DNA from: Streptomyces olindensis | GTDB lineage: Bacteria > Actinomycetota > Actinomycetes > Streptomycetales > Streptomycetaceae | NCBI GenBank assembly: GCA_000696115.1 | Contig: JJOH01000005.1 | Coordinates: 124,001-188,000, forward strand | DNA: 64,000 nt | Direction: 5' to 3' | The notes under the pieces: model-generated | Told to the model about the DNA's origin: nothing | Seen by the model: the letters and a program-made list of their open reading frames with translations, nothing else | The model's database searches: none | Made by a program: the position numbers and the translations under genes | Shown: positions 1 through 15,309 of the stretch, piece after piece | Layout of the letters: every line of letters starts with the position of its first letter | How positions within the stretch are numbered: the first letter of the stretch is position 1

Positions 1-393
1 CTTCGTCAGCGCCACCGCCGTGTTGACGTTGATGTTCACCACGTCCGGCAGCGTGCAGCCCTGGGCGTCCGCGACCAGGCGCTGGGTGAAGGTGGCGTCG
101 CCCGGGTCGTCGATCCAGTTGATCTCGGTGCCCGGGTGGGCCTGCTCGAAGGCGTCGATGACGCCGTTGAAGTACGTCCCGAAGTCCTTCTTCAGGTTGG
201 TGGTCTGGAAGGTGATCTTCCCCTTGACCTCGCCGGAGAGCTTGCCGGAACCGACGTTGCCCTTGTCGACCTTGCAGCCGCCGGCCGTGGCGTCACCGCC
301 GTCGGATCCGCCGCCGGACAGGCCGCAGCCGGCGGCCGTCAGCGTCAGGACGACCAGACAGGTCAGGGATCCGGTGAGTCTTCTTGCGTGCAT
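1..393 (-). CDS. Sugar ABC transporter substrate-binding lipoprotein (N-terminal part; runs off the window)
   Basis: This is the N-terminal 131 residues of a family 1 extracellular solute-binding protein that captures a sugar or oligosaccharide outside the cell for an ABC importer. The ATG at 393 has an AGGAGG ribosome site about 8 bases upstream. A short basic N-terminus (MHARR) precedes a hydrophobic stretch and a lipobox (TAAGCG), so it should be a lipoprotein. The following LSGEVKGKITFQTTNLKKD region is typical of the first beta strand of the carbohydrate-binding family. Permeases, if present, would lie beyond base 1. It sits next to an alpha-mannosidase and shares an upstream motif with it, so the ligand may be a mannose-containing or N-acetylhexosamine-containing glycan; that is inference. 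Confidence 0.85.
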   Translation of the reverse strand, partial: MHARRLTGSLTCLVVLTLTAAGCGLSGGGSDGGDATAGGCKVDKGNVGSGKLSGEVKGKITFQTTNLKKDFGTYFNGVIDAFEQAHPGTEINWIDDPGDATFTQRLVADAQGCTLPDVVNINVNTAVALTK

Positions 394-423
394 TGCTGCC
401 CTCCTGGGACCAGTCGGTGCTGG

Positions 424-480
424 CTCAAATCACCAAGTTGGACTTCGATTGATGAAAAGGTGGACCAGAATTCATCGGAG
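424..480. promoter_or_regulatory. Candidate operator upstream of the sugar-binding lipoprotein
   Basis: The 128-base gap between the lipoprotein and the next gene contains CACCAAGTTGGAC (431-443), then CGATTGATG (446-454) and AAAGGTGGACC (457-467). The halves CACCAAGTTG and AAGGTGG reappear in the same order upstream of the alpha-mannosidase gene, read in the direction of that gene's transcription. The TTGATG element resembles the TTGATT/TCAATC motifs around the RpiR regulator. A shared regulator is inferred from these repeats; no footprint is known to me. Confidence 0.4.
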
Positions 481-521
481 GTCAATGGTTTGCCGTGTTG
501 CTGTTCGGTTGCGTACGGCGG

Positions 522-1175
522 TCAGTGACGGTGTTCGTGGTCCTGATGCGTGGGGTCGCCGGGGTGTTCGTGGCCTTCGGCGTACTCGACGTCGGCTCGG
601 GCTTCGTCCAGCCAGTCGAAGAACGCGCGGCGGGCTGCGGCCTGGCGCAGTTCCTGTGCGATGCCGTTGCGGACGTGCTCGTAGGGGTGGATGTCGGAGG
701 GCGCCGGTTCGTCGAAGGGGTCGACGCCGCGGCGTAGCGCCTCGGGGGTGAGGTAACGGTCCCGGTTGCGGTCGTAGTAGTCCCGTACGGCCGTTTCCGG
801 GATGTGCTGCTCGCCTTCCAGGTCGGCGAGGAGGGCTCGGGCGGCGGGGGAGTGGGCGAGTGCTGCCGCGACGATGCTGCCCAGGTCGGCGACGTCGGCT
901 TCGGGGATGGTGAGCATCTGCGCCGGCGAGACGTCTTCCGGTGTTGCGAGGCCCCGTTCCGTGCAGGTGCGGCGGGCGAGTTCGTCTGTGACGACTACCT
1001 GGGTCGCCCAGCGCCGTTGTTGGCGGTGTCGTCTTGCGGGTGCGGCGTCGTTGTGGCTGGGCGCGCAGTTCCCCGCGCCCCTAAGGGAGGCTGCCCCTCC
1101 GGCATCCAAGAAGGCGGCCACGCGTTCCTTCGGGATCGGCTCGCCGCGGATGCTTGCTGCGTAATCCCCCGTCAT
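522..1175 (-). CDS. PpiC/SurA-like small protein coupled to the alpha-mannosidase
   Basis: This is a 217-residue protein of uncertain function. The C-terminal half (IPETAVRDYYDRNRDRY, then an alpha-helical LRQAAARRAFFDWLDEA segment) resembles the helical N-domain of SurA/PrsA/PpiC-type peptidyl-prolyl isomerases, but I see no complete parvulin catalytic domain. The extreme C-terminus is His-rich (GHEHPGDPTHQDHEHRH) and could bind metal. There is no signal peptide. The ATG at 1175 overlaps the stop of the mannosidase gene (ATGA), so the two are translationally coupled and probably work together; whether it is a chaperone for that very large enzyme is a guess. Residues about 26-47 are encoded by what looks like a dispersed Streptomyces repeat inserted in frame. 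Confidence 0.6.
   Translation of the reverse strand: MTGDYAASIRGEPIPKERVAAFLDAGGAASLRGAGNCAPSHNDAAPARRHRQQRRWATQVVVTDELARRTCTERGLATPEDVSPAQMLTIPEADVADLGSIVAAALAHSPAARALLADLEGEQHIPETAVRDYYDRNRDRYLTPEALRRGVDPFDEPAPSDIHPYEHVRNGIAQELRQAAARRAFFDWLDEARADVEYAEGHEHPGDPTHQDHEHRH
1036..1100. repeat. Streptomyces dispersed GC-rich repeat inside a coding region
   Basis: The stretch includes CGCAGTTCCCCGCGCCCC followed by TAAGGG and, upstream, CGTCGTTGTGGCTGGGCG. It looks like the short dispersed element commonly seen between genes of many Streptomyces genomes (a core of GCGCAGTTCCCCGCGCCCCT followed by an A/G-rich tail). Here it lies inside the PpiC-like gene and keeps the frame open, encoding a Gly/Ala/Arg-rich insert. 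Identification is from memory of the element, without a search. Confidence 0.6.
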
Positions 1176-4100
1176 GGCGTCACCTCCAGCTCCACCGCCT
1201 TCGTGTACGCCACGCATCCGTGCCAGGCCACCTTCGCCATCAGCCAGTACGAACCGGGTGGGATCGCGGCGCCGTCCACCTCGATCGCGGACTCCAGTTG
1301 CTCCCCGCCCGGCACCGTGAAGCCCTGGCAGCCCGGGCTGACGCCGGGCCAGGTGCCCCAGGAGGAGACGGCCCACAGGGTGCCGTCGACGGGGCCGTGG
1401 GTGGTGTTGTGCAGGGTCACGGGGACCCTGGCCCGCTCGCCGCGGCGCACGGACACCCGGTCCACTCCCAGATCCGCCAGCAGCGTCGGGCCCTTGTGCC
1501 CGCCCGGCACGTCCAGGGCCACCACGTCCTCGTAGGTCTGGCCGCCGTAGGACAGGCGCGCCGCGAGACGGTGGCGGCCGGGTGTCGCGTCCGGGGGCGG
1601 GGTCACCGTGATGTCCGTGAGGGTGAAGCCGCCGGGGCCGAGGGCGTAGGGGAGTTCAGCGGGTTCGGTGGTCCAGCCGGGAGGTGTCTCGAAGGTCACC
1701 GTGCCGGACGCCGGTGCGTCGGTCAGCTCCGAGGAGACCCGGACGGTCGCGGTGACCGGGCCGTCGGCGGTGAGGGTGGAGGGGGAGAGGTACACCGCGA
1801 CCGGCATGTTGCCGCGCGGGGCCGGTCCGCAGTTGTGGAGCCAGTAGCGGGTGGCGACCGGCTGGGCGGGCTCGTGGGCGTCGATGCCGGGGCCGGGCGC
1901 CGGGTCCGGCGCGTGGGCCGGTGTGGCGAGGACGGTGGCGACCTCGAAGCCGGTCAGGTCGACCTCGAGGCCACCGTCCCCGTCCGGGGCCAGCGGCTCC
2001 CCGGGCGTCTCCAGGACGTCGGCGCGGGAGCCCGCCGCCCAGGCCACCGGTCCGGTCACCCGGGCCGTGGCGGGCCGGCCGTCCACCTCGTGCACGCGGA
2101 CCACGACGCCCTGCCCGGGGTCCACGCGCGCCGCGCTGCCGCGGGCCAGCGGGGAGCCGGCCGGCTTGAGCGCGTCGAGGAGCACCTCGCCGGCGGGCTC
2201 CAGCCGCAGCAGGGCCGTGTCGCGGGGGAGGGAGCCGCCGGGGGACCGGCGGACCCGGGCCGTGAGCGGGTGGTTGTAGGCGTGCCCGGCCCGGGGCAGC
2301 CGCAGCGCGCGCCAGTCGCCCGGGCCCGCGACGACGGCGTACTCGAAGGTGTGCGACCAGCGCTGGAGCTGGAAGCCGGAGCCGTCCGGGGCGGTCCGGC
2401 GCGGCGGGTCGATCCAGATGCCGGACGGCCAGCCGGTGCATGAGCGCATCAGGGACATGTAGAGGTCGCCGGAGGCGGTGACCACGCAGCCGGGCGTGCC
2501 GCGGTTGAGGATCGCGAAGCTCCGGCCGTCCCAGGCGTCGCCGGGCGGCAGTGCCTCGCCGCCGCCGGCGGCCGTGGCCGTCACCGTGAAGTCGTCCAGG
2601 TCGGCGACGACCGCGTCGACCGCCTTGGCGTCGTCCTCGGGGCGGGCGCCCGCCACCACCAGCAGCGGCAGCCGTTCCAGGTCGCGCAGGTCGGCCCCGG
2701 GCACCCACTCCTCGCGCAGGCAGGCGCGCGGCGCGACCCACACGGCCGCCACGCCCCGCTCGGCGAGCTGACGCCGCAGTTCCCGGCCGGCCGCCGGGTC
2801 CCAGCCGAGGGCCTCGGCGACCACGGCGTTGCGGTCGGGGCCGCCGACGGCGATCCGGATGTCGGGCAGGTTGGAGTCGACCTCCAGGTCGCCGTAGCGG
2901 GGGCCTCCGGCGACGGTCGAGGTCGCCGTGACCCCGGCGCGGACCAGGGCCGCCGCCAGCGGCGCGCCGAGGTCGCCCGCGCTGTCCCAGTCGGAGTGGA
3001 CGAGTTCGGCGACGCCGATCGCGCGGTGCCCGAGGAGCGTGCCGGAGTCGTCGTGGACGGCGACGCGGGCGGTGGAGCCGAGGCCGAACCAGGTGTTCGC
3101 CGGGTTGTCCAGCGTCCACGGGAACCGTTCGCTGTCCACCTCCACGAACCCGAACCCGCGCCCGATCACCGCGTCCGCCACCTCGTGCACCGGCAGTCCG
3201 CCCCGCACGTCCGACGGCCAGCGCACCCGGATCAGCCGGTCGGCGCCGTCGTACCCGTCGACGGTCGTGGTGACGTCGAGCCGGTCGACGCCCTGCCACA
3301 GCGTCAGCCGCTGGGTGTAGCGGAACAGGCCGAGGTCGGCGGTGACGGTGATCCGGGAGCCGGCGGCGGAGTGCTCGGTGCGGACCTCGGCCGGCACGTC
3401 CCGGCTGCGGGCGGCGGTCGTGCCGGTCGGGGTGAGGTGCCAGGGGCCCTCCCCGAAGCGCGGATGTCTCGGGTACTCCTCCTGGACGACGATCTCGTTG
3501 CCGACGTCCCCGTCCCGGAGCAGTTCCCGGCCGCCCTCGGTGAGCGCGCGCAGACTCCTGACGCCGCCGCCGCGCGCCGGGTCGACCGTCACCTCGTAGA
3601 ACTCGTTGCGGATGGTGAGGCCCTCGCCGGGTGCCCAGCCGGGGACGGTCCCCTCGGTGAGCGGGAGCGCCTTGAGGCCCATGCCGGGCGACTCCGGCAC
3701 GACGACGTGGAGCCGGCCGTCCTCCCGGACCGCGGGCAGGCCGTCCGGCACCAGACCCGGGTCGTCGATCGTCAGCACGTCCTGCCGCGTCCAGGTCGCG
3801 GAGTTGAACACGACGAGGTCGGGTCCGTCGCCCGGGGCGACCTCGTCGGCCAGGGCCTGGGTGGCGTCGGCGTGCACGCTCACGGCCAGGTCGTGCAGCT
3901 CCCGCCAGCCGGTCATCAGGTCGATGTACACCTGGTCCGACTCCGAGCCGGTGATGGCGTCGTGGTGGGCGCCGTAGACCAGTTGCCGCCAGGCCTTGTC
4001 GAGGGCCGCGTCCGGGTAGGGGTGGCCGGTCACGAGGGAGGCGAGCGTCGCCCAGGCCTCGGCGTCGGCGAGGAGGGTCTCGCCGAAGCGCTGGGCCTGC

Positions 4101-5383
4101 TTGGTGTCGATGTAGGAGACGTCCTTGCCGGTGTAGATCGGGTTCATGTCGCGGGTCTGCGGCGATGCCTTGCGGCCCTCGGCCCGGAGTTCCGCGCGGA
4201 CGGCGGCGAAGAAGTCCCGGGGGATCGCGCTGATGAAGCGCGGCCAGACGTAGCGGGCGTTCCAGTCGCGGTGGATGTCCATCACCCAGCGGCACGGCGG
4301 CGCGTAGTCCCCGCCGACGGGGAGGAGCACGTTGCGGGTGAGGGCGACCTGCTTGAGCCGCTGGAAGAGCTGGTACGCGGCGGCCTCCGCCTGGGGCAGG
4401 GTGGGCGCGTTGTCGATCGCCCAGCCGGCGCCGTAGTGGTTCACCATGTACGCGGTGAGCAGCCCGCGGCCGGAGGGGGCGATCCAGTCGAACTCGGCCG
4501 GGAACTGCATGCGGTTCGGATCGCGCGGCTCCTCGCCGAAGACCGACAGCGTCGGCCCCCACTGGTGGAACGGCCCGCGCGCCCACGAGCTGGAGGTCAC
4601 CCCCGCGTCCGCCATCAGCCCCGGGAACTGCGGGTCGTGCCCGAAGGCGTCCAGCTGCCAGGCGGTCTCCGGGGACGCGCCGATGACGCCACGCTGGAAG
4701 CCGTCGCCGTACAGGGCGTTGCGGATGGTCGCCTCGGCGCCGGTGAGGTTGGTGTTGGGCTCGTTGTAGGTGCCGCCCATGATCTCCACGCGGCCGGTGC
4801 GGATCAGCTGCCGCAGGAAGGCGCGTTCCTCCGGGAAGGCGTCCCAGTAGGGCTTGAGGTAGTCGACCTCGGCGAGCACGAAGGTGTAGGCGGGGTCGCG
4901 GCGGGCCAGGTCGCAGTGGGCCCGCACGAGGCTCATGCCGGACTGTCCGCGCGAGTCGAAGGTGCGGGCCGGCAGGCCGGTGGCGGCGGGGTCGTCGGCG
5001 ACGTCCCAGGTCTCGGTGTAGGCGCCCTGGGTGTTCCACCAGACGGGGTCGTAGTGGAAGTGGCTGACCATGAACATGGTCCAGCCGGGTTCGGCCGCCG
5101 TGAACACGCCCGTGTGCGAGGCGGACGCGTCCCCGTCGACGGCGGTGACCGTGATCTCGCGGCGGTCGCCGGGGACCAGGTCCGCGCCGGTCACGGGTAT
5201 CTCGGCGCGCGCCGTGCCGTCCTCGCCCACGGAGGTCTCCGCGGTGCCGGTGAGGCCCGGGCCCTCGACGGTGAGCCGGACGGTCCGGCCCGGGGTGTGG
5301 CTCAGCTCGACGGCGACCACCTGGCGCGGCTGCTCGGTGGTCCCGGTGAAGAGCTCGGTCGACTCGACAGAGGTGACGCGCAT
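1172..5383 (-). CDS. GH38 alpha-mannosidase, large multidomain form
   Basis: The enzyme hydrolyses alpha-mannosidic bonds in glycans with retention. It has 1403 residues, against about 1000 for the usual family member. The GH38 catalytic signature HFHYDPVWW lies near residue 108 and the nucleophile motif QLDAFGHDPQF near residue 243. The middle-domain motif HHDAITGSESDQ follows near residue 475, then long beta-sandwich domains and a C-terminal NEW3-like region (PPGWTTEPAELPYALGPGG). No signal peptide is evident from the ATG at 5383, which has AGGAG 5 bases upstream, so it is probably intracellular or exported by another route. It begins a two-gene unit with the PpiC-like protein. An open frame continues 25 codons upstream, but that stretch overlaps the putative promoter and lacks a ribosome site. 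Confidence 0.9.
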   Translation of the reverse strand: MRVTSVESTELFTGTTEQPRQVVAVELSHTPGRTVRLTVEGPGLTGTAETSVGEDGTARAEIPVTGADLVPGDRREITVTAVDGDASASHTGVFTAAEPGWTMFMVSHFHYDPVWWNTQGAYTETWDVADDPAATGLPARTFDSRGQSGMSLVRAHCDLARRDPAYTFVLAEVDYLKPYWDAFPEERAFLRQLIRTGRVEIMGGTYNEPNTNLTGAEATIRNALYGDGFQRGVIGASPETAWQLDAFGHDPQFPGLMADAGVTSSSWARGPFHQWGPTLSVFGEEPRDPNRMQFPAEFDWIAPSGRGLLTAYMVNHYGAGWAIDNAPTLPQAEAAAYQLFQRLKQVALTRNVLLPVGGDYAPPCRWVMDIHRDWNARYVWPRFISAIPRDFFAAVRAELRAEGRKASPQTRDMNPIYTGKDVSYIDTKQAQRFGETLLADAEAWATLASLVTGHPYPDAALDKAWRQLVYGAHHDAITGSESDQVYIDLMTGWRELHDLAVSVHADATQALADEVAPGDGPDLVVFNSATWTRQDVLTIDDPGLVPDGLPAVREDGRLHVVVPESPGMGLKALPLTEGTVPGWAPGEGLTIRNEFYEVTVDPARGGGVRSLRALTEGGRELLRDGDVGNEIVVQEEYPRHPRFGEGPWHLTPTGTTAARSRDVPAEVRTEHSAAGSRITVTADLGLFRYTQRLTLWQGVDRLDVTTTVDGYDGADRLIRVRWPSDVRGGLPVHEVADAVIGRGFGFVEVDSERFPWTLDNPANTWFGLGSTARVAVHDDSGTLLGHRAIGVAELVHSDWDSAGDLGAPLAAALVRAGVTATSTVAGGPRYGDLEVDSNLPDIRIAVGGPDRNAVVAEALGWDPAAGRELRRQLAERGVAAVWVAPRACLREEWVPGADLRDLERLPLLVVAGARPEDDAKAVDAVVADLDDFTVTATAAGGGEALPPGDAWDGRSFAILNRGTPGCVVTASGDLYMSLMRSCTGWPSGIWIDPPRRTAPDGSGFQLQRWSHTFEYAVVAGPGDWRALRLPRAGHAYNHPLTARVRRSPGGSLPRDTALLRLEPAGEVLLDALKPAGSPLARGSAARVDPGQGVVVRVHEVDGRPATARVTGPVAWAAGSRADVLETPGEPLAPDGDGGLEVDLTGFEVATVLATPAHAPDPAPGPGIDAHEPAQPVATRYWLHNCGPAPRGNMPVAVYLSPSTLTADGPVTATVRVSSELTDAPASGTVTFETPPGWTTEPAELPYALGPGGFTLTDITVTPPPDATPGRHRLAARLSYGGQTYEDVVALDVPGGHKGPTLLADLGVDRVSVRRGERARVPVTLHNTTHGPVDGTLWAVSSWGTWPGVSPGCQGFTVPGGEQLESAIEVDGAAIPPGSYWLMAKVAWHGCVAYTKAVELEVTP

Positions 5384-5429
5384 GGGGCTCCTACGAGTGC
5401 TCTGGGGGAGCCCCATCCTGTACGGCAGG

Positions 5430-5470
5430 AGTGATTCAAACAACCACCTTCGCGTCAACTTGGTGGTTCA
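5430..5470. promoter_or_regulatory. Inverted-repeat operator upstream of the alpha-mannosidase
   Basis: A perfect 7-base inverted repeat, AACCACC (5442-5448) and GGTGGTT (5462-5468), with a 13-base spacer lies about 60 bases upstream of the mannosidase start. Read toward the gene it contains ACCAAGTTGAC and AAGGTGG, matching the element upstream of the first gene of the window. GTGATTCAAA (5431-5440) next to it recalls the RpiR-region motifs. The site also lies just past the 3-prime end of the RpiR gene. Confidence 0.5.
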
Positions 5471-5491
5471 TCCATGCATGCCCGGCCGGGG

Positions 5492-6376
5492 TCACCTGCC
5501 CCGCCGGTTCCTCACCGCATGCTGCCCGGCGATGTGGTCGGTCAGTGCCAGCGAGGCGCTCGCCCGCTGGTAGGAGAGCTGGGCGACCCGGACGTAGAGG
5601 CAGTCGATGAGCACCAGCACGCTGTGCCGGGCGCCGATGCTGCCGGTGCGGAAGCTGGTCTCGGAGGACGAGGAGACGAGCCGGACGTCGGCGGCCCGGG
5701 CCAGCGGCGAGCGCGGGTCGGCCGTGATCGCGACGGTGGTGGCACCGCGCTCCTTGGCCAGTTCGAACGGCTCGATGGTCTCGCGCGTCGCCCCCGAGTG
5801 GGAGATGCCGATCGCCACGTCGGCCGGGGTGAGCAGGGCGGCGGAGGTCGTCGCGGCGTGCACCTCGGTCCAGCCGCGCACCGCGCAGCCGATCCGGAAC
5901 AGCCGGGTCTCGGTCTCCTGTGCCACGGCGCCGCTGCCGCCGACCCCGTAGACGTCGATCCGGCGGGCCCGGGCGGTCGCCTGCGCCGCGCGCTCGACGG
6001 CGTCGAGGTCGATGCGGTCGATGGTCTGCTGCACCGCCCGCAGGTCCGCGGTGCCGACGACCTGCACGACCCGTTCCAGGCTGTCGTCGGGCGAGATGTC
6101 CGGGCCGATCTCGGCGGTGCCCCAGTCGGAGGCCTCCCCGCGGCCACGCTCCTGGGCCAGTTCGATCAGCAGGTGCTGGTAGGAGTCGAGCCCGATGGCG
6201 CGGCAGAAACGGGTCACCGTCGCCTGGGAGGTGCCGGTGCGGCGGCCCAGCTCGGCGGCCGAGCAGTGGGTGACGGCGGCCGGATCCTCCAGGATCAGCT
6301 CGCCGACCTTCCGCAGGGAGCCCGCCAGCCGGGGCAGCTCGGTGCGGATCAGTGTCGTGACGTCCGTAGGAGGCAT
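5492..6376 (-). CDS. RpiR-family transcriptional regulator (HTH + SIS)
   Basis: This is a sugar-phosphate-sensing repressor or activator of 294 residues. The N-terminal HTH_6 domain spans about residues 1-77 (AELGRRTGTSQATVTRFCRAIG). The C-terminal SIS domain (about 110-260) carries GVGGSGAVAQ and GISHSGATRETIE, the phosphosugar-binding loops. Length and domain order are standard for the family. It is transcribed toward the mannosidase gene and divergently from the SIS-protein gene, so it is the natural regulator of this glycan locus. No Shine-Dalgarno sequence is visible before the ATG at 6376. A GATACC hexamer lies 8 bases upstream of that ATG, so the message could be leaderless or nearly so. 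TTCAAT motifs in its own promoter suggest autoregulation. Confidence 0.92.
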   Translation of the reverse strand: MPPTDVTTLIRTELPRLAGSLRKVGELILEDPAAVTHCSAAELGRRTGTSQATVTRFCRAIGLDSYQHLLIELAQERGRGEASDWGTAEIGPDISPDDSLERVVQVVGTADLRAVQQTIDRIDLDAVERAAQATARARRIDVYGVGGSGAVAQETETRLFRIGCAVRGWTEVHAATTSAALLTPADVAIGISHSGATRETIEPFELAKERGATTVAITADPRSPLARAADVRLVSSSSETSFRTGSIGARHSVLVLIDCLYVRVAQLSYQRASASLALTDHIAGQHAVRNRRGR

Positions 6377-6546
6377 GGGGAGAAGGTATCAGCCACCTAT
6401 TGCGGCACGGATTGAATACCAGGACCCGATTGCCCGCGGGCCCGAGCGTGTGATTTATTGATTCATCGATGGAGATGTATAGGGTGGTTCAATCCATCAG
6501 GACTCAATCCAATCCATCAGGGCCGTCCATCAGTGGGGAGTGTCGC
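6377..6546. promoter_or_regulatory. Divergent control region of the RpiR regulator and SIS gene, with direct repeats
   Basis: AATCCATCAGG occurs at 6491-6501 and again at 6511-6521, exactly 20 bases apart (two helical turns), and a weaker copy of the core TCCATCAG lies at 6526-6533. Further related elements are ATTGATTCATCGATGG (6457-6472), TTCAATCC (6488-6495), TCAATCCAATCC (6504-6515) and ATTGAATACC (6411-6420, facing the regulator gene). This is the densest cluster of the motif in the window and is the best candidate for the RpiR operator; the assignment is inference. Confidence 0.55.
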
Positions 6547-7311
6547 GTGTCCGTCGAGTCTGTGAGCGCCCAAGGGTTCGCGCGGGAGAGCCTCGCCGTC
6601 CTCCAGAAGGTCATCGCGTCCTCCCGCGACGACGTGGCCGCCGCCGCGGAGCTGGTCGCCGCGTGCGTGCGCTCCGACGGTGTCGTCCAGGCCTTCGGCA
6701 CCGGCCACTCGCAGGCCCTCGTCCTCGAACTCGCCGGCCGCGCCGGCGGACTGGTCCCCACCAACCGGCTCAGCATCGCCGACCTCGTGCTCTACGGCGG
6801 TGAGGACCCCTCCGCCCTGGACGACCCGCTCCTCGAACGCCGGGCCGGGGTGGCCGCGCGGATCTACGAGCTCGCCGCCCCGCGCCCCCAGGACCTGTTC
6901 GTCGTCGTCTCCAACTCCGGGGTCAACAGCGTCATCGTCGAGATGGCCCTGCACGCCAAGGAGCGCGGCCACCGCGTCCTGGCCCTCACCTCCCTCACCC
7001 ACACCCGGGCCGTCCCCGCCGCCCACCCCAGTGGCCGGAAGCTGGCCGACATCGCCGACGTCGTCCTCGACAACGCGGCCCCGCGCGGCGACTCGCTGCT
7101 CGAACTGCCCGGCGGCGGCTCGGTCTGCGCCCTGTCCACGCTCACCGGCGTGATGCTGGTCCAGATGACGGTCGCCGAGGCGGCCGGCCGCCTCCTCGCC
7201 GCCGGCGAGCGCCCCCCGGTCTACGTCTCGGCCAACGTGCCCGGCGGTTTCGAGGGCAACCTGGAACTGGAGAAGAGGTACGCGGGCCGGATCCGCCGCA
7301 CGGCGAGCTGA
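6547..7311 (+). CDS. SIS-domain sugar-phosphate isomerase-like protein (UPF0309 type)
   Basis: This 254-residue protein is a single SIS domain. FGTGHSQALVLELAGRAGG holds the first phosphosugar loop and VVSNSGVNSVIVEMA the second (S-N-S-G). Proteins of this family accompany amino-sugar and N-acetylhexosamine catabolic genes and are thought to isomerise or sense sugar phosphates; the exact substrate is unknown. The GTG at 6547 follows GGGGAG with a 6-base gap, and the protein then has family length; the upstream ATG at 6469 would add a tail encoded by the operator repeats. It is divergent from the RpiR regulator and convergent with the GH84 gene. Confidence 0.88.
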   Translation: MSVESVSAQGFARESLAVLQKVIASSRDDVAAAAELVAACVRSDGVVQAFGTGHSQALVLELAGRAGGLVPTNRLSIADLVLYGGEDPSALDDPLLERRAGVAARIYELAAPRPQDLFVVVSNSGVNSVIVEMALHAKERGHRVLALTSLTHTRAVPAAHPSGRKLADIADVVLDNAAPRGDSLLELPGGGSVCALSTLTGVMLVQMTVAEAAGRLLAAGERPPVYVSANVPGGFEGNLELEKRYAGRIRRTAS

Positions 7312-7329
7312 TCCGCGCCGACCCGGACC

Positions 7330-7365
7330 GGACGGCCGGGGCCCGCCACCGGGCCCCGGCCGTCC
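7330..7365. terminator. Bidirectional hairpin terminator between SIS and GH84 genes
   Basis: A perfect 15-base-pair stem (GGACGGCCGGGGCCC at 7330-7344 with its complement at 7351-7365) and a 6-base loop lie in the 58-base gap between two convergent genes. There is no U tract, which is common for Streptomyces terminators. Confidence 0.85.
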
Positions 7366-7369
7366 CGCG

Positions 7370-10300
7370 TCACTCAGCCGGCACCGGCACCGGCGTCAGC
7401 GCCACGGCCAGCGGATAGGCGCCGGTCGCCAGCGGTGTCCCGACGGCACCGGAACCCGTGTCGACCGGGACGAGTTCACCCGCGTCGGCCGTCGTGACGT
7501 ACGCCGTGGCGCCGTTCCAGTCCAGGGCGACGTCGAAGGCCGACCTGCCGACCGTCACCCGCTTCCCCGGGACGCCGGTGACGGTGTCGACGGGCGTGAC
7601 GGTGTCGCCGGTGCTCGGGCTGACCCACAGGGTCCGGCCGTCCGGCGACAGGGCGAGACCGTAGGCCTGGCCGGAGACCAGGAGCGTCGGCTCGGTGCCC
7701 TGCGTGGCCGTGTCGATCGGAGTGATGGTCGAGCCGCCGGAGTTGGACACGTACACCCGCTTCCCGTCGGGCGCGGCCACGATGTTGAAGGGGCTCGGCC
7801 CCACCGGGACGGGGGCCCCGGCCTTCCGGGTGGCCAGGTCGACCGGCGTGACGGTGTCGTCCTTGATGTTGGGCACGTAGAGGGTGCGGCCGTCCGGGGT
7901 GATCGCCATGTTCTCGGGCCCGTTGCCGACCCGGACGGGTGTGCCCGGGGTGAGGGAGGCCGTGTCGACGGGCTGGACCGTGCCGTCCCCGTAGTTGGCG
8001 ACCCAGAGGGTGCCGCCGTCAGGGGTGAGCGCGAGCCCGGCGGGGACCTTGCCGACCGGGACCGTGGCGGTGACCCTGCCCCGCGCCACGTCGATCACGT
8101 TGACCGTGTTCGAACCCTGGGCGGCCGCGTAGGCGGTGCGCCCGTCGGCACTCGTGACCACCTCGCCGGGGTTGGCGCCCACGGGGATGTTCGTGGACTT
8201 CTTCGAGGCCAGGTCGATCGAGGTGACGGACGCGCCGCTGAAGTCGGCCGTCAGCGCCCGTGGACTGCCGGTGCCGTCGCTCACCTGGACGGGCAGCGCG
8301 CGGCCCACGAGCCCGTCGCCCGACACCACGACGGAGCGCACTCCGGCGGACGCGCCGTCCGCGGCCGTCACGGTCACCGTCGCGGACGCACTGCCTCCGG
8401 CCGGGACGGACACGGAGCCCTCGGCGGGCGAGACGGTGACACCGTCCGGGGCGCTCAGCTTCCACGCGACCGTCCGGGCGGCGGTGTCGGAGAAGGAGAG
8501 GGTCACCCGCGCCGAACCGCCCGGCTTCAGACCGACGGATCCGGGCGCGAACGCGGCGTCCACGCCCGGGTCGGGCGCGTTCTCGGTCTCCGCCGCGTAG
8601 AGGAACTGGTCGATCACGCCCGGGGCCACCTGCTGGGGTAGCGCGTCCAGCTCCTTGCGCTGGGCCCTCAGCCGGTTCCAGGAGGCGGTGACCGCGTCGC
8701 CGTCGCCCCGCTCGGCGGCAAGCAGCAGGTCCACGGCCGTCTGCCCGGCGGTGCCGTAGCGGCCCAGCTTGTCCAGCCAGGGCGAGGTCTCCGCGAGGAA
8801 GCCCGGATTGTCGAGGCGGGCCCGGAGTTCGGCGGGCGTGGCCGCCATGCGGGCGAAGTACGAGCGGAGCGCGGCGGCGGCGCGGTCGAGGCCGGAGTCG
8901 TCGTCGTAGGCCGTGCGGAACCTGGCGATGAGCGCGCTCAGCGTGGGGGACTCGGTCGGGTCGAGCTGGGACGAGTGGTTGTTCTCGGCGAAGATCCGCA
9001 GCCACGGGGCCGCGTCCGCCCCGGCGAGGTCCCGGACGGAGGCGAGGAAGGCGGCCCGCGGGTCGTAGTCGTCCGGGTTCCACAGATAGGCGGCGGAGGT
9101 GAACAGGGCGATCCGGCTGGCCTCGCCCTGCACCATCGGGTTGGCGGTCACGCCGGCCGCCGCCTTCGCCACCCCGGGCTCGCGGCCGGTGTACGGGCCG
9201 AGGAGCAGGCGGCTGGTGACGTAGTCGTTCACCGGGTAGTTGTCCCAGATCAGGATCGGATGGCCGTAGACCTCACGGGCCTTGGCGACCTGCTCGGCGG
9301 TGATGGCCGGGGCGATGACGCCGACGCCGGTCCACTCCACGACCACGGACGGGTCGAGCCGCTCCCGCAGCGCCTTCTTGTAGGGGGAGTCGGCGAGGTC
9401 GGAGTACTCGGTGGGGACCATCTCCAGCGGCTCCAGCCCCGGGTGACCGGCGGAGAAGTCCCGCCACGCCCGGTTGAGCAGGTGGGCCTGGGCCGCTCCG
9501 GCGGCGCCGCCTCCCGTGCCGAACTCCCGCTCGTCGGCGGCACAGTTCCACTTGGTGTAGCTGATGTCGTCCAGCGGGATCGCGAAGGAGCGCACGCCGA
9601 TGGCGTACAGCGAGTCCAGCTTGCGGACGAGGGCCTGGAGGTCGGCGTCCGAGGAGTAGCAGACGGACAGCCCGGGGGAGAGGGCGTAGGTGGAGCGGAC
9701 GTGGTCGGCGGCGGCCCGGTCGACCAGTTCCTTCAGCCGCTGGAGTTCGGCGGCCGGGTACGGATCGCGCCAGCGGGCGCGCAGGTACGGGTCGTCCTTG
9801 GGGGAGTAGACGTACACGTTCTGCTTGGTGCGGCCGTAGAAGTCGAGCTGGGCCAGCCGCTCGGCGTGTGACCAGGGGGTGCCGTAGAACCCCTCGATCA
9901 CGCCGCGCAGCGCCGCCGCGGGCCAGTCCCGGACGGTCACCTCGGGCACGGTCCGGGTGACCAGCTGACGCAGGGTCTGGGCGGCGTAGAAGGTGCCGGT
10001 GCGGTCGGCGCCGGACAGGGCGAGCAGGGTGCGGCCGTCCCGGCGGCCGGAGGCCAGGACGTAGCCGCCGGACGGCAGTCCGGCCGGGGACGGGGCCTTC
10101 AGGCGCCTCAGGGCCGGGGCCGTCGCGGCGTTCTCCTCCGGTCCGCCGAGGAAGACGGTGAAGGCGGCCCGTGCGGGCGGGCGGGTGACCGTGTCGATCC
10201 GCCGGGCTCCGGCGTCGCGCAGGACGGTCTCGACGACCCGCCGGGCCGACGGGTCGGTGCCGCGCCCGACGACCGCCACGACCCGGTCGGGGACCGTGAG

Positions 10301-10468
10301 CCGGCCCGGCCCGGTGCGCATGCTCTGCGGCTGCGGCCACACCTGGGGCGGTGCGCTCTTCGGGGGCTGGTCCGGTGCGGCGGCCGCGGGCGGCACCGGT
10401 GTGAGCGTGAGGCCCAGGGCCAGCAGCGGCGCGGCGGCGAGCCGTCCGAAACGGGTGGCTGAGAACAC
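7370..10468 (-). CDS. Secreted GH84 beta-N-acetylglucosaminidase with YVTN beta-propeller
   Basis: The enzyme removes terminal beta-GlcNAc (hyaluronidase/O-GlcNAcase family) by substrate-assisted catalysis. It has 1032 residues. A signal peptide ends near AAAAPD (about residue 32). A family 20/84-type N-domain follows (about 40-175), then the catalytic barrel beginning RGVIEGFYGTPWSHAERL and continuing with VYSPKDDPYLR. The catalytic Asp pair D300-D301 sits in IPLDDISYTKW, and WDNYPVNDY follows. A helical region leads to a NEW3-like beta-sandwich (about 640-735) and about seven YVTN/NHL blades (about 745-1025) with repeats such as ALTPDGGTLWVANYGDGTV. The GTG at 10468 has AGGAG 6 bases upstream. 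The propeller fusion is unusual and may mediate binding at the cell surface or to the glycan. Neighbouring mannosidase and SIS genes suggest degradation of GlcNAc/mannose glycoproteins. Confidence 0.92.
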   Translation of the reverse strand: MFSATRFGRLAAAPLLALGLTLTPVPPAAAAPDQPPKSAPPQVWPQPQSMRTGPGRLTVPDRVVAVVGRGTDPSARRVVETVLRDAGARRIDTVTRPPARAAFTVFLGGPEENAATAPALRRLKAPSPAGLPSGGYVLASGRRDGRTLLALSGADRTGTFYAAQTLRQLVTRTVPEVTVRDWPAAALRGVIEGFYGTPWSHAERLAQLDFYGRTKQNVYVYSPKDDPYLRARWRDPYPAAELQRLKELVDRAAADHVRSTYALSPGLSVCYSSDADLQALVRKLDSLYAIGVRSFAIPLDDISYTKWNCAADEREFGTGGGAAGAAQAHLLNRAWRDFSAGHPGLEPLEMVPTEYSDLADSPYKKALRERLDPSVVVEWTGVGVIAPAITAEQVAKAREVYGHPILIWDNYPVNDYVTSRLLLGPYTGREPGVAKAAAGVTANPMVQGEASRIALFTSAAYLWNPDDYDPRAAFLASVRDLAGADAAPWLRIFAENNHSSQLDPTESPTLSALIARFRTAYDDDSGLDRAAAALRSYFARMAATPAELRARLDNPGFLAETSPWLDKLGRYGTAGQTAVDLLLAAERGDGDAVTASWNRLRAQRKELDALPQQVAPGVIDQFLYAAETENAPDPGVDAAFAPGSVGLKPGGSARVTLSFSDTAARTVAWKLSAPDGVTVSPAEGSVSVPAGGSASATVTVTAADGASAGVRSVVVSGDGLVGRALPVQVSDGTGSPRALTADFSGASVTSIDLASKKSTNIPVGANPGEVVTSADGRTAYAAAQGSNTVNVIDVARGRVTATVPVGKVPAGLALTPDGGTLWVANYGDGTVQPVDTASLTPGTPVRVGNGPENMAITPDGRTLYVPNIKDDTVTPVDLATRKAGAPVPVGPSPFNIVAAPDGKRVYVSNSGGSTITPIDTATQGTEPTLLVSGQAYGLALSPDGRTLWVSPSTGDTVTPVDTVTGVPGKRVTVGRSAFDVALDWNGATAYVTTADAGELVPVDTGSGAVGTPLATGAYPLAVALTPVPVPAE

Positions 10469-10550
10469 GGAAGCTCCTTCCGGGGGCCGGGGTCACCGGC
10501 CCGTGGCCAGAGAGGGAGGTGAATGGAGCCACCGAGTGATGCTAGAGATG

Positions 10551-10570
10551 CTGAATGGATCAATCAATGG
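10551..10570. promoter_or_regulatory. Candidate RpiR-type motif upstream of the GH84 gene
   Basis: TGAATGGATCAATCAATGG (10552-10570) lies about 85 bases upstream of the GH84 start. Its complement reads CCATTGATTGATCCATTCA, containing the same TTGATT and GATTGA cores as the RpiR promoter cluster. This ties the secreted N-acetylglucosaminidase to the mannosidase/SIS locus. Confidence 0.4.
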
Positions 10571-10738: not shown

Positions 10739-11821
10739 ATGACGACGAGCGGAGCCGACGGCACCCCGGCCGCCGGCGGGCGTCGCCGCCGCGGACCCGG
10801 CATGACCGAGGTCGCCCGGGCCGCCGGGGTGTCGCAGAAGACCGTGTCCCGAGTGGTCAACGGCGAGCCGCACGTCAGCCCCGAGGTGCGCGACCGCGTC
10901 CTCCGGGCCATCCGCGACCTGGACTACCGTCCCAACACCGCGGCCCGCGCCCTGCTCCTCGGCCGCTACCGCCGGATCGGCGTGGTCTCGCTCGGCAGTT
11001 CGCTCTACGGCCCGTCGACCCTGCTCATCGCCCTGGAGCGGGCCATGCAGCGCGCCGGGTACTCCGTCGCCCTGGCCAGCACCCTGGAGGGGCAGCGCGT
11101 CTCGGTGGCCGTGGACGCGCTGCTGGAACAGGGCGTGGACGGGATCGTGCTGTCCGAGCCCATCGACGACGGCACACCGCTCAGACTCAGCGCGGACGTG
11201 CCGGTCGTCAGCCTCGGCGAAGGCGTGGAGCTGACCCGGGGCACGAGTGCCGTGGTCGGCGCCGACGGCGTCGCGGCCGCCCGGATCGCCACCGAGCACC
11301 TGCTCTCCCTGGGCCACCGCACCGTCTGGCACCTCCCCGGGCCGCAGGACTGGTGGGCCGCCCGCGACCGCCTGCGCGGCTGGCGCGAGGCCCTCGCCGC
11401 CGCCGGCGCGCCCGAACCGCCCCTGCCGTCACCGGGCGACTGGAGCCCGGCCTCCGGATACGCCGCCGGACGTCAGCTCGCCCGACTCTCCGACGTCACG
11501 GCCGTGTTCGCCGCCAACGACGACATGGCCATCGGCGCCCTGCGCGCGTTCGCCGAGGCCGGTCGTGCCGTCCCCGGTGACGTGAGTGTCGTCGGCTACG
11601 ACGACATCCCCGCCGCCGCCTACCTCTCCCCGCCGCTGACCACCGTCCGGCAGAACTTCGCCGCCGTCGCCGACCGCGCCGTCGACGTACTGATCGCCCT
11701 GATCGAGGGCCGCCCCGCCCCGGCCGCACCGGCCGACCGGGCGGTCGAACTGACCGTACGGGCCTCGACCGGGCCGGTACGCGACCCCGGCGCCGCGCCC
11801 CAACCCGCCCCGGCGCCCTGA
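10739..11821 (+). CDS. LacI-family transcriptional regulator of the GH42 operon
   Basis: This 360-residue repressor has an N-terminal LacI HTH (MTEVARAAGVSQKTVSRVVN, about residues 22-41, then DRVLRAIRDLDYRPN as the hinge approach). Its C-terminal periplasmic-binding-like sugar domain carries typical motifs (GVDGIVLSEP, FAANDDMAIGALRA, VVGYDDIPAAAYLSPPLTTV). The ATG at 10739 follows GGGAG; an in-frame start at 10664 would place codons across the second operator and is less likely. The ligand should be a galactoside or a derivative, given the downstream importer and GH42 enzyme. It is separated from them by 321 bases of repeats but lies on the same strand. Confidence 0.93.
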   Translation: MTTSGADGTPAAGGRRRRGPGMTEVARAAGVSQKTVSRVVNGEPHVSPEVRDRVLRAIRDLDYRPNTAARALLLGRYRRIGVVSLGSSLYGPSTLLIALERAMQRAGYSVALASTLEGQRVSVAVDALLEQGVDGIVLSEPIDDGTPLRLSADVPVVSLGEGVELTRGTSAVVGADGVAAARIATEHLLSLGHRTVWHLPGPQDWWAARDRLRGWREALAAAGAPEPPLPSPGDWSPASGYAAGRQLARLSDVTAVFAANDDMAIGALRAFAEAGRAVPGDVSVVGYDDIPAAAYLSPPLTTVRQNFAAVADRAVDVLIALIEGRPAPAAPADRAVELTVRASTGPVRDPGAAPQPAPAP

Positions 11822-12142
11822 CCGCCCCACCCTCTGACCGCTTCCGCCCCTGACCGCTCCCGCCCACAACCCCGACCGCCCCGACCCCTGACCGCCCTCA
11901 CCCCGTCGACTGCCCCCACCCCGTCGACCGACTCAGTCCCGTCGACCACCTCCACCCCGTCGACCGCCTCCCCCGGCCGACCTCCCCCCACCCCGCCGAC
12001 CGTCGACGCCCCGGCGGCCACGGCACCCTGCCGTCGGTCCGATGTGCCCTGCCCGCGTGCGCCGTTCGGGACCGTCGCCGCGCGCGCCGCCCGCCCCGTC
12101 GGGTACCGACCGGCCCGAGCCGCACCACGTGAGGAGCCACGT
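11822..12142 (+). repeat. Non-coding gap with 18-bp tandem repeats
   Basis: This 321-base gap has no convincing gene. CCCCGTCGAC (one copy TCCCGTCGAC) recurs at 11901, 11919, 11937 and 11955, an exact 18-base period over four units. It is preceded by degenerate CTGACCGC-type units from 11819. The last part holds the ribosome site GAGGAG (12131-12136) of the next gene. A CACGT half occurs twice near it (12126 and 12139). I find no copy of the TGACTACGTAGTCA operator here. Confidence 0.7.
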
Positions 12143-13501
12143 GTGTACACCCCTCCGCCCCCACCGCCTCCCTCCCCGCCGACCCGCCGCGCCCTGCTGC
12201 GCGGAACCCTCGGCCTCGGCACCACCGCCGCCCTCGCCGCCTGCGGCGGGGACAGCACCACACCCCGCACCTCCGGCGACGTCACCCTCTCCCTGTGGAC
12301 CCACGACCCGGGCTACGAGGCGTTCTTCGCCAAGGGCGTCCCGGAGGCAGACCGCGCCACCGACTTCCGCTACCACCTGAAGGTCACCCGCGCCGGTGCC
12401 CCGGACATCGTCACCAAGCTGCTCGCCCAGGCCGTCGCCGGACGCGGCACCCCCGACCTGGTCGGCTTCGAGATCGCCAGCTTCCCGCGCATGCTGCGCG
12501 GCGACATCGCCGAACGGCTGCTGTACGACTTCACCCCGGACATCGAGGCCGTGCCCGGCCTCAAGGACGACCTGCTGCCCGCCCGGACCGCCCCCTTCAG
12601 CAAGGACGGCCGCGTCTACGCCTTCGACTCGGACACCCCGATGGTCGTCTACTTCTACCGCCACGACCTCTTCGAGAAGTACGGCCTCCCCGAGGACGTG
12701 GCGACCTGGGAGGAGTTCGCCGAGGCCGGGGCCCGGACACACCGGGACCACGGGGCCTCGATGTGCGTGGTCTCCACGGTGGGCAGCGACCCGGCCCAGG
12801 TCGTGCAGTCCTTCCAGATGCTGCTCTACCAGCGCGGCGGCACCTTCTTCGACGCCGCCGGGAACCTGCTCCTGGACTCGCCCGAGGCCGAGGAGGTGCT
12901 GCGGTTCCTCTGCGACGGGCTGCGCAGCGGCTTCGTCGTCGAGGTCTCCGACTACTACGGCGCCGGCATGCAGACCGCGCTGAAACGGGGCCGGGTCATC
13001 GGCCTGCCCATGGCCATCTGGTACAAGAACTACGGCCTGGTCACCAACGTGCCCGAGCAGAAGGGCAAGTGGCGGGTCCGCGCGCTGCCCCGCTTCGGCA
13101 ACGGCGGCGGGGTGACCGCGGCACTGGGCGGCACCGGCTTCGGCGTCGTCAAGGACCAGGCCAACACCCGCGCGGCCAGGGAGTTCCTCTTTCGGACGTG
13201 GCTCACCCACGACGGCCAGGTCCGCCGCTTCACCGAGACCGGCTATCTGCCCACCCGCCGCTCGGTGTTCGACGACCCCCGCCTGGGTGCCTACACGGAC
13301 GACTTCTGCGGCGGCCAGCGGCTCTTCCGCCTCTACCGCTCCCTGCTCCCGGACGTGCCGCCGTTCCACCAGAGCCCCGACCAGTCGATCCTCTACGACG
13401 TGCTCGGGGGGAACCTGCTGCGGGCCTACAAGGGGGATCTGTCGCCGCGTCAGGCGTTGCGGCGGACGGTGGCCGATTTCCGTGACCAGGCCGGGCGGTA
13501 G
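12143..13501 (+). CDS. Sugar ABC transporter substrate-binding lipoprotein
   Basis: This family 1 extracellular solute-binding protein has 452 residues and delivers an oligosaccharide to the two permeases that follow. The N-terminus has a Pro-rich run, a twin-arginine pair (TRRALLRG), a short hydrophobic segment and the lipobox LAAC, so it is probably a Tat-exported lipoprotein. The mature domain starts TLSLWTHDPGYEAFF. The GTG at 12143 has GAGGAG 6 bases upstream; the longer frame from 12044 would put a non-signal extension before the Tat motif. It is 21 bases upstream of the first permease gene. Confidence 0.92.
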   Translation: MYTPPPPPPPSPPTRRALLRGTLGLGTTAALAACGGDSTTPRTSGDVTLSLWTHDPGYEAFFAKGVPEADRATDFRYHLKVTRAGAPDIVTKLLAQAVAGRGTPDLVGFEIASFPRMLRGDIAERLLYDFTPDIEAVPGLKDDLLPARTAPFSKDGRVYAFDSDTPMVVYFYRHDLFEKYGLPEDVATWEEFAEAGARTHRDHGASMCVVSTVGSDPAQVVQSFQMLLYQRGGTFFDAAGNLLLDSPEAEEVLRFLCDGLRSGFVVEVSDYYGAGMQTALKRGRVIGLPMAIWYKNYGLVTNVPEQKGKWRVRALPRFGNGGGVTAALGGTGFGVVKDQANTRAAREFLFRTWLTHDGQVRRFTETGYLPTRRSVFDDPRLGAYTDDFCGGQRLFRLYRSLLPDVPPFHQSPDQSILYDVLGGNLLRAYKGDLSPRQALRRTVADFRDQAGR

Positions 13502-13522
13502 TTCGGATCAGGAGGCCCCATC

Positions 13523-14464
13523 ATGACCACCACCGTCGCCGGGCCGCCCGGCGCAGCCCGTGCGCACAGCGCCCGAGGCCGGGAGGAACACCGCCCCCGC
13601 CGGGCCTGGGCGCCCTACCTCTTCGTCTCGCCCTTCTATCTCCTCTACGTCCTGTTCATGCTGGTCCCGGTCGGCGTCTCGCTGTGGCTGAGCCTCACCG
13701 AGTGGGTCGGGCTCGGCACGCCGCACTGGGTGAGGCTGCGCAACTACCGCCTCCTCGCCACCGACATAAGCTTCCACCGGGCCCTCGGCAACACCGCCGT
13801 GTTCGTGCTGGTCGCCGTCTGCCTCGTCGTCCCGCTCGCCCTGCTGATCGCCCAGGCCCTCAACACCCGCGGCCTGCGCGTGCGCGACCTGTGGCGCACC
13901 GCCTACTTCGTGCCGATCGTGGTCTCCCCGATCCTGGTCGCCCTGATCTTCGGCCTGATCTTCGACCGGCAGTTCGGACTCGCGAACGCGGTGCTGCGCT
14001 CCCTGTTCGGCACCGGCGGCGTCGACTGGCTGGGCGACCCGAACCTGGCCAGGATCAGCATCGCCCTGGTCATGCTGTGGCGCTGGACCGGCTACCTCAC
14101 CGTCTTCTTCCTCGCCGGGCTGCAGAACGTGCCTCGGGAGCTGTACGAGGCCGCCGCCCTCGACGGGGCCGGACGGCTGCGCACCTTCACCACCGTCACC
14201 CTGCCGGCGCTGAAGCCCGTGACGGCGTTCGTCGTCGTCACGTCCTTCGTCGGCGCGGCCCAGATCTTCGAGGAGCCCTACCTGCTGACCGGCGGCGGAC
14301 CGGCCGAGTCGACCCTCTCGGTGACCATGTTCATCTACCGGGCCGCCTTCCAGCGCCAGCAGTTCGGCTACGCGGCGGCCGCCGCCGTGGTCCTCTTCGT
14401 CCTCGTCTTCGGCCTCAGCCGGCTCGTCAACCGGCTCCTCGGCATCGGGAGGGCCGCATCGTGA
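13523..14464 (+). CDS. Sugar ABC transporter permease (MalF-like)
   Basis: This inner-membrane channel subunit has 313 residues and six predicted transmembrane helices, beginning with YLFVSPFYLLYVLFML. The permease EAA loop reads YEAAALDGAGRLRTFTTVTL near residues 211-230. An AGGAGG site precedes the ATG at 13523. Its stop overlaps the next start (GTGA). No ATPase gene is in the operon; Streptomyces sugar importers usually share the MsiK ATPase encoded elsewhere. Confidence 0.93.
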   Translation: MTTTVAGPPGAARAHSARGREEHRPRRAWAPYLFVSPFYLLYVLFMLVPVGVSLWLSLTEWVGLGTPHWVRLRNYRLLATDISFHRALGNTAVFVLVAVCLVVPLALLIAQALNTRGLRVRDLWRTAYFVPIVVSPILVALIFGLIFDRQFGLANAVLRSLFGTGGVDWLGDPNLARISIALVMLWRWTGYLTVFFLAGLQNVPRELYEAAALDGAGRLRTFTTVTLPALKPVTAFVVVTSFVGAAQIFEEPYLLTGGGPAESTLSVTMFIYRAAFQRQQFGYAAAAAVVLFVLVFGLSRLVNRLLGIGRAAS

Positions 14465-15279
14465 CACGCGCCCGGCTGCCCCTCTACGCCTTCCTGGTCC
14501 TGCTGTTCGTGGGCTTCCTCGCCCCGCTGGCGTGGGCGTTGAGCGGCTCGTTCAAACCGCGCGGCGACATCTTCGGCTACCCGCCGGAACTCGTCCCGGA
14601 CCCCTTCACGCTCGACAACTACCGCACCCTGCTCACCGAGCAGCCCTTCGGCCGCTGGTTCCTGATGAGCACGGTGGTCGCCGTCGTCGCCACCACCGTG
14701 TCCGTCTTCGTGTGCGCGCTCGCCGGCTACGGCTTCGCCAAGTTCCGCTTCGCCGGGAAACGGCTGCTGTTCAACGTCATGTTCAGCTCGCTGTCGATCC
14801 CGTTCGCGGTGATCCTCGTGCCGCTGTTCGTGATCCTCGTCAAGACCGGCCTCGGCAGCCCCTGGTTCGCGCTGATCGTGCCCTGGGTGGCGCCCGCCTT
14901 CGGGATCTTCATGATGCAGCAGTACATCGTGCAGTCGGTCCCGGACTCGGTGTTGGAGGCCGCCCGGATCGACGGGGCGAGCGAGTTCGGCATCTTCCGG
15001 ACCATCGTGCTTCCGCTGCTGCGGCCGGCGCTGGGCGCCCTGGCCGTCTGGCAGTTCCTGCAGAGCTACAACAGCTTCCTGTGGCCGCTGGTGCTGGTCT
15101 CCGACAGCTCCCGGTACACCCTGCCGCTGGGGCTGCAGACGCTGTTCGTGTCGGAACAGCGGCAGTACGACCTCGTGCTCGCCGGATCCGTCCTCGCCGT
15201 CCTGCCTGCCGTCGCCCTCTTCGTGCTGCTGCGCAAGCAGCTCCTCGAAGGGCTGTCCACGGGTGCGGTCAAGGGCTGA
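14461..15279 (+). CDS. Sugar ABC transporter permease (MalG-like)
   Basis: This second channel subunit has 272 residues. A hydrophobic first helix (LYAFLVLLFVGFLAPLAWAL) is followed by SFKPRGDIFGYPP, typical of MalG-type permeases, and the EAA loop is LEAARIDGASEFGIFRTIVL near residues 165-184. The GTG start at 14461 overlaps the stop of the MalF-like gene by 4 bases, which fixes the start and implies translational coupling. The GH42 gene begins 30 bases after its stop. Confidence 0.93.
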   Translation: MTRARLPLYAFLVLLFVGFLAPLAWALSGSFKPRGDIFGYPPELVPDPFTLDNYRTLLTEQPFGRWFLMSTVVAVVATTVSVFVCALAGYGFAKFRFAGKRLLFNVMFSSLSIPFAVILVPLFVILVKTGLGSPWFALIVPWVAPAFGIFMMQQYIVQSVPDSVLEAARIDGASEFGIFRTIVLPLLRPALGALAVWQFLQSYNSFLWPLVLVSDSSRYTLPLGLQTLFVSEQRQYDLVLAGSVLAVLPAVALFVLLRKQLLEGLSTGAVKG

Positions 15280-15309
15280 CGTTCCTCTCGATCCCCCTCT
15301 AGGAGAAGC

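Follow-up and report, generated by a model that had tools for sequence, protein, structure and literature searches.

Two questions are raised by the cluster of glycosidase and regulatory genes analyzed here: which glycan is it directed at, and what controls it? The window, a stretch of 64,000 nucleotides of the Streptomyces olindensis genome, opens with genes for an ABC sugar-binding lipoprotein (SBP), a GH38 alpha-mannosidase, an RpiR-family regulator, a SIS-domain protein and a GH84 beta-N-acetylglucosaminidase. A preliminary description made from the sequence had grouped these five genes together, and all are present, as evidenced through Pfam and NCBIfam matches (Table 1). The glycoprotein-glycan degradation proposed at that stage is also supported. 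Its target can be narrowed to the N-glycan core on the strength of further genes in the locus, which encode a GH5_18 enzyme close to ScGH5_18, a NagK-like kinase and ABC permeases. It is fairly likely that the locus serves the catabolism of eukaryotic N-glycan cores and is under the control of its own RpiR repressor.

Whilst the genes had been named correctly, the bounds of the locus had not, as orfX, between the SBP and GH38 genes, was skipped and the left-hand genes were missed. The locus extends approximately 9 kb to the left of the window, with genes for a GH3, the GH5_18 protein, a BadF/NagK-like kinase, a second GH3 and two ABC permeases. One of these GH3 proteins is NagZ-like, scoring 205.8 bits where the cutoff is 207, and no GH20 was seen in the locus. 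The closest match of the GH5_18 protein is ScGH5_18 (PDB 7lr7; E 4e-146), followed by BlGH5_18 and BlMan5B of Bifidobacterium and a C. acnes enzyme. The whole SBP gene matches SBP_bac_8 (1.5e-27) and SBP_bac_1 (3.9e-26). A signal peptide is not apparent on GH38, which has an NPCBM-associated domain close to its C terminus. The N terminus of GH84 is hydrophobic and signal-like, and its residues 300–301, in an LDDI motif that starts at 299, keep a DD pair, which we take to be catalytic. C-terminal to the catalytic part of GH84 are a NEW3-type domain and YVTN/YncE-like beta-propeller repeats. Further to the left, a 963-aa frame on the reverse strand (L009 3850–6741) lies between msrB and a GH3 gene and, judged by eye, has membrane-like stretches and a binding-protein-like part. 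To the right, forward-strand genes at 10739–17370 encoding a LacI regulator (10739–11821), an SBP, permeases and a GH42 beta-galactosidase are probably a separate sugar locus.

Table 1. Genes and operator-like sites of the locus within the window.
Feature	Coordinates	Strand	Details
SBP gene, 5' part	1–393	-	Whole gene 457 aa, L009:15020–16393
orfX	522–1175	-	217 aa; start overlaps GH38 stop, ATGA at 1172–1175
GH38 alpha-mannosidase	1172–5383	-	1403 aa; Glyco_hydro_38N 3.7e-46, Alpha-mann_mid 9.4e-13
RpiR-family regulator	5492–6376	-	294 aa; HTH_6 8e-12, SIS 1.4e-21
NagS-like SIS-domain (SIS_2) protein	6547–7311	+	254 aa; NCBIfam PRK02947 1.9e-83
GH84 beta-N-acetylglucosaminidase, secreted	7370–10468	-	NAGidase 5.3e-113, NagJ_C 6e-32
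Operator-like palindrome, SBP promoter	421–436		10.3 bits; promoter block conserved in orthologues
Weaker operator-like palindrome, SBP promoter	445–460		7.7 bits
Operator-like palindrome, GH38 promoter, first of pair	5428–5443		12.0 bits
Operator-like palindrome, GH38 promoter, second of pair	5460–5475		11.7 bits
Operator-like palindrome, rpiR/SIS divergent promoter	6454–6469		13.7 bits; block conserved
Operator-like palindrome, rpiR/SIS divergent promoter, TGGTTCAATCCATC block	6481–6496		13.8 bits; block conserved
Weaker operator-like site, downstream in GH84 promoter	10520–10535		7.8 bits
Operator-like palindrome, GH84 promoter	10552–10567		17.1 bits, best of 80 kb

The arrangement is conserved within Streptomyces. 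RpiR is found at a minimum of 85% identity in 22 of 150 Streptomyces genomes besides this one, with one more at 64%, and the close named matches of the SIS gene are from Streptomyces. Counted within the 22 related stretches fetched (L043–L064), where gaps are partly contig or stretch ends, RpiR is present in 22, SIS in 21, GH38 in 19, orfX and SBP in 18 each, NagK in 16, GH5_18 in 13 and GH84, which is accessory to the locus, in 11. In L044 and L046, NagK and GH5_18 are displaced beyond the stretch by an insert of ~5 kb, and the 2.1 kb preceding NagK in L053 contain no GH5_18. The gene order recurs in named species including S. cyaneus, S. tibetensis and S. pseudovenezuelae, and 43 named loci include 32 with GH38 and 31 with orfX. 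Four loci without GH38 between NagK and RpiR (L049/L097, L064, L113, and L114) keep NagK, RpiR and SIS. No RpiR match was found beside the SIS gene in Kutzneria (L130) or Verrucomicrobia (L138).

Under the proposed route, glycan fragments freed outside the cell would enter via the SBP and the two permeases. In the cytoplasm, GH38, helped by co-translated orfX, would remove alpha-mannose, GH5_18 would cleave Man-beta-1,4-GlcNAc, and GlcNAc would be released by the NagZ-like GH3, and by GH84 outside the cell. The NagK-like kinase would phosphorylate GlcNAc, with the NagS-like SIS protein acting on GlcNAc-6P or a product. For the matched GH5_18 enzymes, the available parts of two papers give Man-beta-1,4-GlcNAc of the N-glycan core as the substrate (PMC6160142, PMC12691653). 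GH85 was considered as the glycan-releasing enzyme and rejected, as there is none in the genome.

That absence, together with the presence of GH5_18 in 13 rather than all of the related loci, would also suit a substrate other than N-glycan cores, namely fungal mannan or mannoprotein, or the organism's own mannosylated envelope. GH38 enzymes are a broad class, and the mycobacterial alpha-mannosidase Rv0648 has been discussed for mannan remodeling, as far as the available part of that source goes (PMC8035080). Such a substrate is nonetheless unlikely, as a GH5_18 of the Man-beta-GlcNAc type, the NagK-like kinase, the NagZ-like GH3 and GH84 suit GlcNAc-containing cores better than pure mannan.

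With regard to control, short cores had previously been noted upstream of four of the genes. The exact cores (TTGATT, GATTGA, and their complements) occur eight times in the window, at 447, 6410, 6458, 6489, 6504, 10560, 10562 and 58616, and seven of the eight lie inside the four intergenic stretches named (676 bases in total); dinucleotide shuffles of these stretches gave a mean of 0.60 cores and reached seven in 0 of 1000 cases. At 5431–5440, a site that had been called weaker, an exact core is indeed absent. The enrichment thus holds, but the literal strings are poorly kept in some orthologous promoters: they are present in 17/19 SBP and 20/22 rpiR/SIS promoters, against 2/20 for GH38, 2/11 for GH84 and 4/15 for GH5_18/NagK, and were rejected as the motif for this reason. 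What does pass the check on orthologous loci is a wider, degenerate palindrome recovered by motif search, roughly TTGnTnnATnnAnCAA, which contains the cores and is conserved at the SBP, GH38, rpiR/SIS and GH84 promoters and at the GH5_18/NagK promoter to the left of the window. The blocks conserved in orthologues include GGTGGTTCAATCCAYC before SIS, TGGTTCAAACAACCA before GH38, TTGGTGAATTGAACCA before SBP, and TTGAATGAAGCATTCA and GGTGGATACATTCACC before GH84. Before the SBP gene, where a site had been placed at 446–454, the weaker palindrome of Table 1 does score, but it is not the best site of that promoter.

The bit scores of the sites come from a model whose training set excluded this genome and the most similar locus (L056). 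Across 80 kb of contig, the top eight matches are all in locus promoters (10552, -6373, 6481, 6454, -6342, 5428, 5460, and 421, negative positions being left of the window), the ninth scores 8.7 bits and is outside the locus, and no match of at least 9 bits was found outside the locus in this 80 kb. Models trained on four promoter classes recognized the fifth every time, for all five classes, with the held-out class mean reached by 0/200 shuffles and 0/200 coding samples in each, the starting matrix, which had already seen all classes, having been flattened by half prior to retraining. Among named Streptomyces loci other than those used for training, 9 bits or more were reached in 30/30 SBP, 31/31 GH38, 8/8 GH84 and 33/33 RpiR promoters; the SIS count, which also takes in distant named loci, was 33/38, and 39 such matches occurred in the 643 kb outside. 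The RpiR and SIS counts are read from a common intergenic stretch and so depend on each other. L097 and L111, being identical to training loci, are left out of these counts, and so, for SIS, are L136 and L138, whose match either fell short at the start or had too low an identity. The rpiR start has no strong site of its own and is counted via the shared rpiR/SIS stretch, and the only NagK promoter available for this test beyond the training loci had no site of at least 9 bits.

The five SIS promoters below this threshold belong to distant loci (L128–L131 and L133), and no site of at least 9 bits was found in six distant actinobacterial loci, these five and L136. This is thus an operator of the Streptomyces clade, and it was not observed in other genera. 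Many matches in the verrucomicrobial L138 were discarded as meaningless, since they fit its AT-rich DNA. The two best sites in each promoter are usually paired at a variable distance of 24–37 bp, and a fixed 32-bp spacing was therefore rejected. Beside the best site, a second of at least 5 bits occurs in 15/19 SBP, 20/20 GH38, 22/22 rpiR/SIS, 15/15 GH5_18/NagK and 8/11 GH84 promoters. A genome-wide scan using a relaxed pattern returned 53 matches versus 27 for a reversed control, and an in-gene test of these matches was non-discriminating, calling the locus's own promoter sites coding-like too. Before the NagZ-like GH3 gene, TGGCTCAACGAGCCA (L009 6881–6895) may be another site. The idea of a shared operator at the locus promoters is, through the held-out models and the conservation in named loci, strongly supported.

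It is quite improbable that the conserved blocks are instead mainly sigma-factor promoter elements (-35 TTGA type, -10 TAGCAT type). TTGAAT in the GH84 promoters is probably a -35 element, because 10 of 11 of these fit TTGAWY-N15-18-TASVDB, but the same pattern fits only 3 of 22 rpiR/SIS promoters, and it was on that count that -35/-10 elements were rejected for the SIS promoter; moreover, the blocks are palindromes longer than a hexamer and come two to a promoter, with varying distance between them, for example GGTGGATACATTCACC after the GH84 -10. Binding of the palindromes by another regulator, be it a global one or the LacI whose gene adjoins GH84 here, with RpiR controlling little, is highly improbable, since LacI at >50% identity was found in 0 of 43 named and 1 of 22 other related loci (it was rejected as a locus member, several stretches ending near its expected place), whereas all 22 related loci have RpiR, as do the motif-bearing Streptomyces loci, and the motif keeps to the locus in the 80 kb of contig. 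A local repressor probably controls the locus through repeated conserved DNA sites, and RpiR, in which HTH_6 and SIS domains both exceed the cutoff as in RpiR/MurR regulators, would be the protein that binds them. It would occupy the paired palindromes at the SBP, GH38, rpiR/SIS and GH5_18/NagK promoters, as well as at that of GH84 in loci that have it, and would leave the DNA once its SIS domain binds an amino-sugar phosphate.

Our best guess is that an amino-sugar phosphate, e.g., GlcNAc-6P, is both the effector of RpiR and the substrate of the SIS protein. This stems from the loci that lack GH38 but keep NagK, RpiR and SIS, from the amino-sugar genes that neighbor RpiR-SIS elsewhere, and from a NagK-like gene often being near. 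In other genera, the neighbors include NgcE above the curated cutoff in L129, L133 and L136, with MurQ and NamZ also in L129, and in S. flaveolus (L128) they are GH20 and an alpha-L-fucosidase. RpiR-SIS pairs lie near NagK, NgcE, MurQ or NamZ genes in L129, L131, L133, and L136. It is possible that RpiR-SIS is an amino-sugar-phosphate control module that is wider than this locus.

The SIS protein shares its fold with NagS (SCO4393, GlcNAc-6P dehydratase), and retains the NagS residues H53, S54, R64, E94, S119, S121, D179, and N228, but S91 is replaced by Pro and G227 by Ala. In all 37 locus SIS proteins the S91 position is Pro, with H53, R64, E94, D179 and N228 kept. The available part of one paper describes H53, R64, E94 and D179 as essential in NagS, reports a 40-fold loss in kcat/Km for S91A and inactive or negligible activity for three homologues of 25.7–35.7% identity, and gives at least 58.7% identity and linkage to dmdR1 as criteria for NagS (PMC12680351). 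The locus protein was rejected as NagS, being 35% identical to the genome's own copy and not beside dmdR1, with NagS itself elsewhere (C6:231649–232362, L012; E 5e-141 to SCO4393). That copy adjoins a DtxR-family repressor gene, as reported for nagS-dmdR1. Given the Pro at S91, the inactive low-identity homologues and the separate NagS, NagS activity is not assumed for the locus protein. The locus ties a NagS-like enzyme to one operon and one regulator.

The gene skipped in the preliminary description, orfX, matches neither a Pfam nor an NCBIfam family at E ≤ 0.001, and its product ends in the window in the tail GHEHPGDPTHQDHEHRH. In 48 of 49 loci, this genome included, a 4-nt overlap joins an in-frame orfX start to the GH38 stop, in a test that also required the tail and whose 49 GH38 ends include at least one sequence twice (L045 and L111). 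Across 27 aligned orfX proteins the common tail is G-x-EHPGDP-x-(H)-x-DHEHRH, with 14 positions invariant, and the first H after DP is Q in 2 of 49 tails. Of 296 genomes of the class, a profile search picked out 23 with orfX, which belong to five of 114 genera and to three families. GH38 of this type adjoins orfX in all 19 non-Streptomyces genomes that have it, and in these together with one Streptomyces locus the ORF always starts at the identical overlap (20/20), with the tail present in all except L178 (19/20). Conversely, this GH38 type occurs in 9 of 148 genomes, all nine of which also carry orfX. The second GH38 of this genome (C95) is without orfX, there being a single orfX match in the genome.

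The AF2 model of orfX has a mean pLDDT of 84.7, and the top 12 rows of its structural matches are SurA, PpiD or related chaperones (Z 5.9–8.2), which is moderate evidence; Foldseek returned no match at E ≤ 0.001 (best E 0.51). Rotamase_2 falls below cutoff in the window protein (P0005; E 0.34) and above it in two longer homologues (1.3e-10 and 5.2e-11) of the five proteins scanned, the same two having SurA_N_3 below and NifM far below cutoff. DUF7158, of unknown function, is matched by four of these five proteins, P0005 being the exception. With its predicted SurA-like fold, orfX would resemble the SurA, PpiC and NifM-type chaperones, but unlike these the window protein is without a recognized PPIase domain, is cytoplasmic by appearance, and has a His/Asp-rich tail tied to one glycosidase class. 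The SurA/PpiC-like predicted fold and the conserved tail suggest that orfX is probably a dedicated maturation factor for GH38. A fuller version remains tentative, and somewhat doubtful, in which orfX would be a co-translated SurA/NifM-like maturation factor that lost its PPIase domain in Streptomyces and whose almost invariant His/Asp tail loads or guards the metal site of one class of actinobacterial GH38 zinc mannosidase, with the SIS enzyme making or removing the amino-sugar-phosphate inducer of RpiR. NifM is the maturation factor for the nitrogenase Fe protein, and should mannosidase activity depend on orfX, this protein would be a comparable, private glycosidase chaperone, relevant to anyone expressing these GH38 enzymes. 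Mycobacterial Rv0648/Rv0649, we presume, may be an orfX-GH38-type pair. A full-text literature search turned up work on NagS and on N-glycan pathways, but no SurA-like GH38 partner among the matches listed.

N-glycan pathways of gut and soil Actinobacteria are reportedly, to go by its title, the subject of Higgins et al. 2021. The locus had been described as no recognized system, which stands in part. GH38, GH5_18 and an ABC transporter make up a known actinobacterial N-glycan-core pathway, and all are found together in this genome, the transporter as the SBP and two permeases; in the available part of PMC6160142, such loci are described in Cutibacterium acnes and the GH38+GH5_18 gene pair is noted in Bifidobacterium. 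The RpiR regulon with its NagS-like SIS protein is a variant of this pathway, and an RpiR operator for such a locus was not found in the full-text literature among the matches listed. For soil Streptomyces, the variant predicts an N-glycan utilization regulon whose operators are exactly specified. Most worth following is the orfX-GH38 pair, and after it the conserved operator and the NagS-like enzyme. As in C. acnes locus 1, so far as the available part of its description goes (PMC6160142), GH38, GH5_18, SBP and permease genes lie together and the mannosidases have no apparent signal peptide. Unlike C. acnes, the Streptomyces locus has an RpiR with a multi-promoter palindrome, a NagS-like SIS protein, a NagK-like kinase, two GH3 proteins and orfX, and where the C. 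acnes system is described there as having GH20/GH18, it has an accessory secreted GH84.
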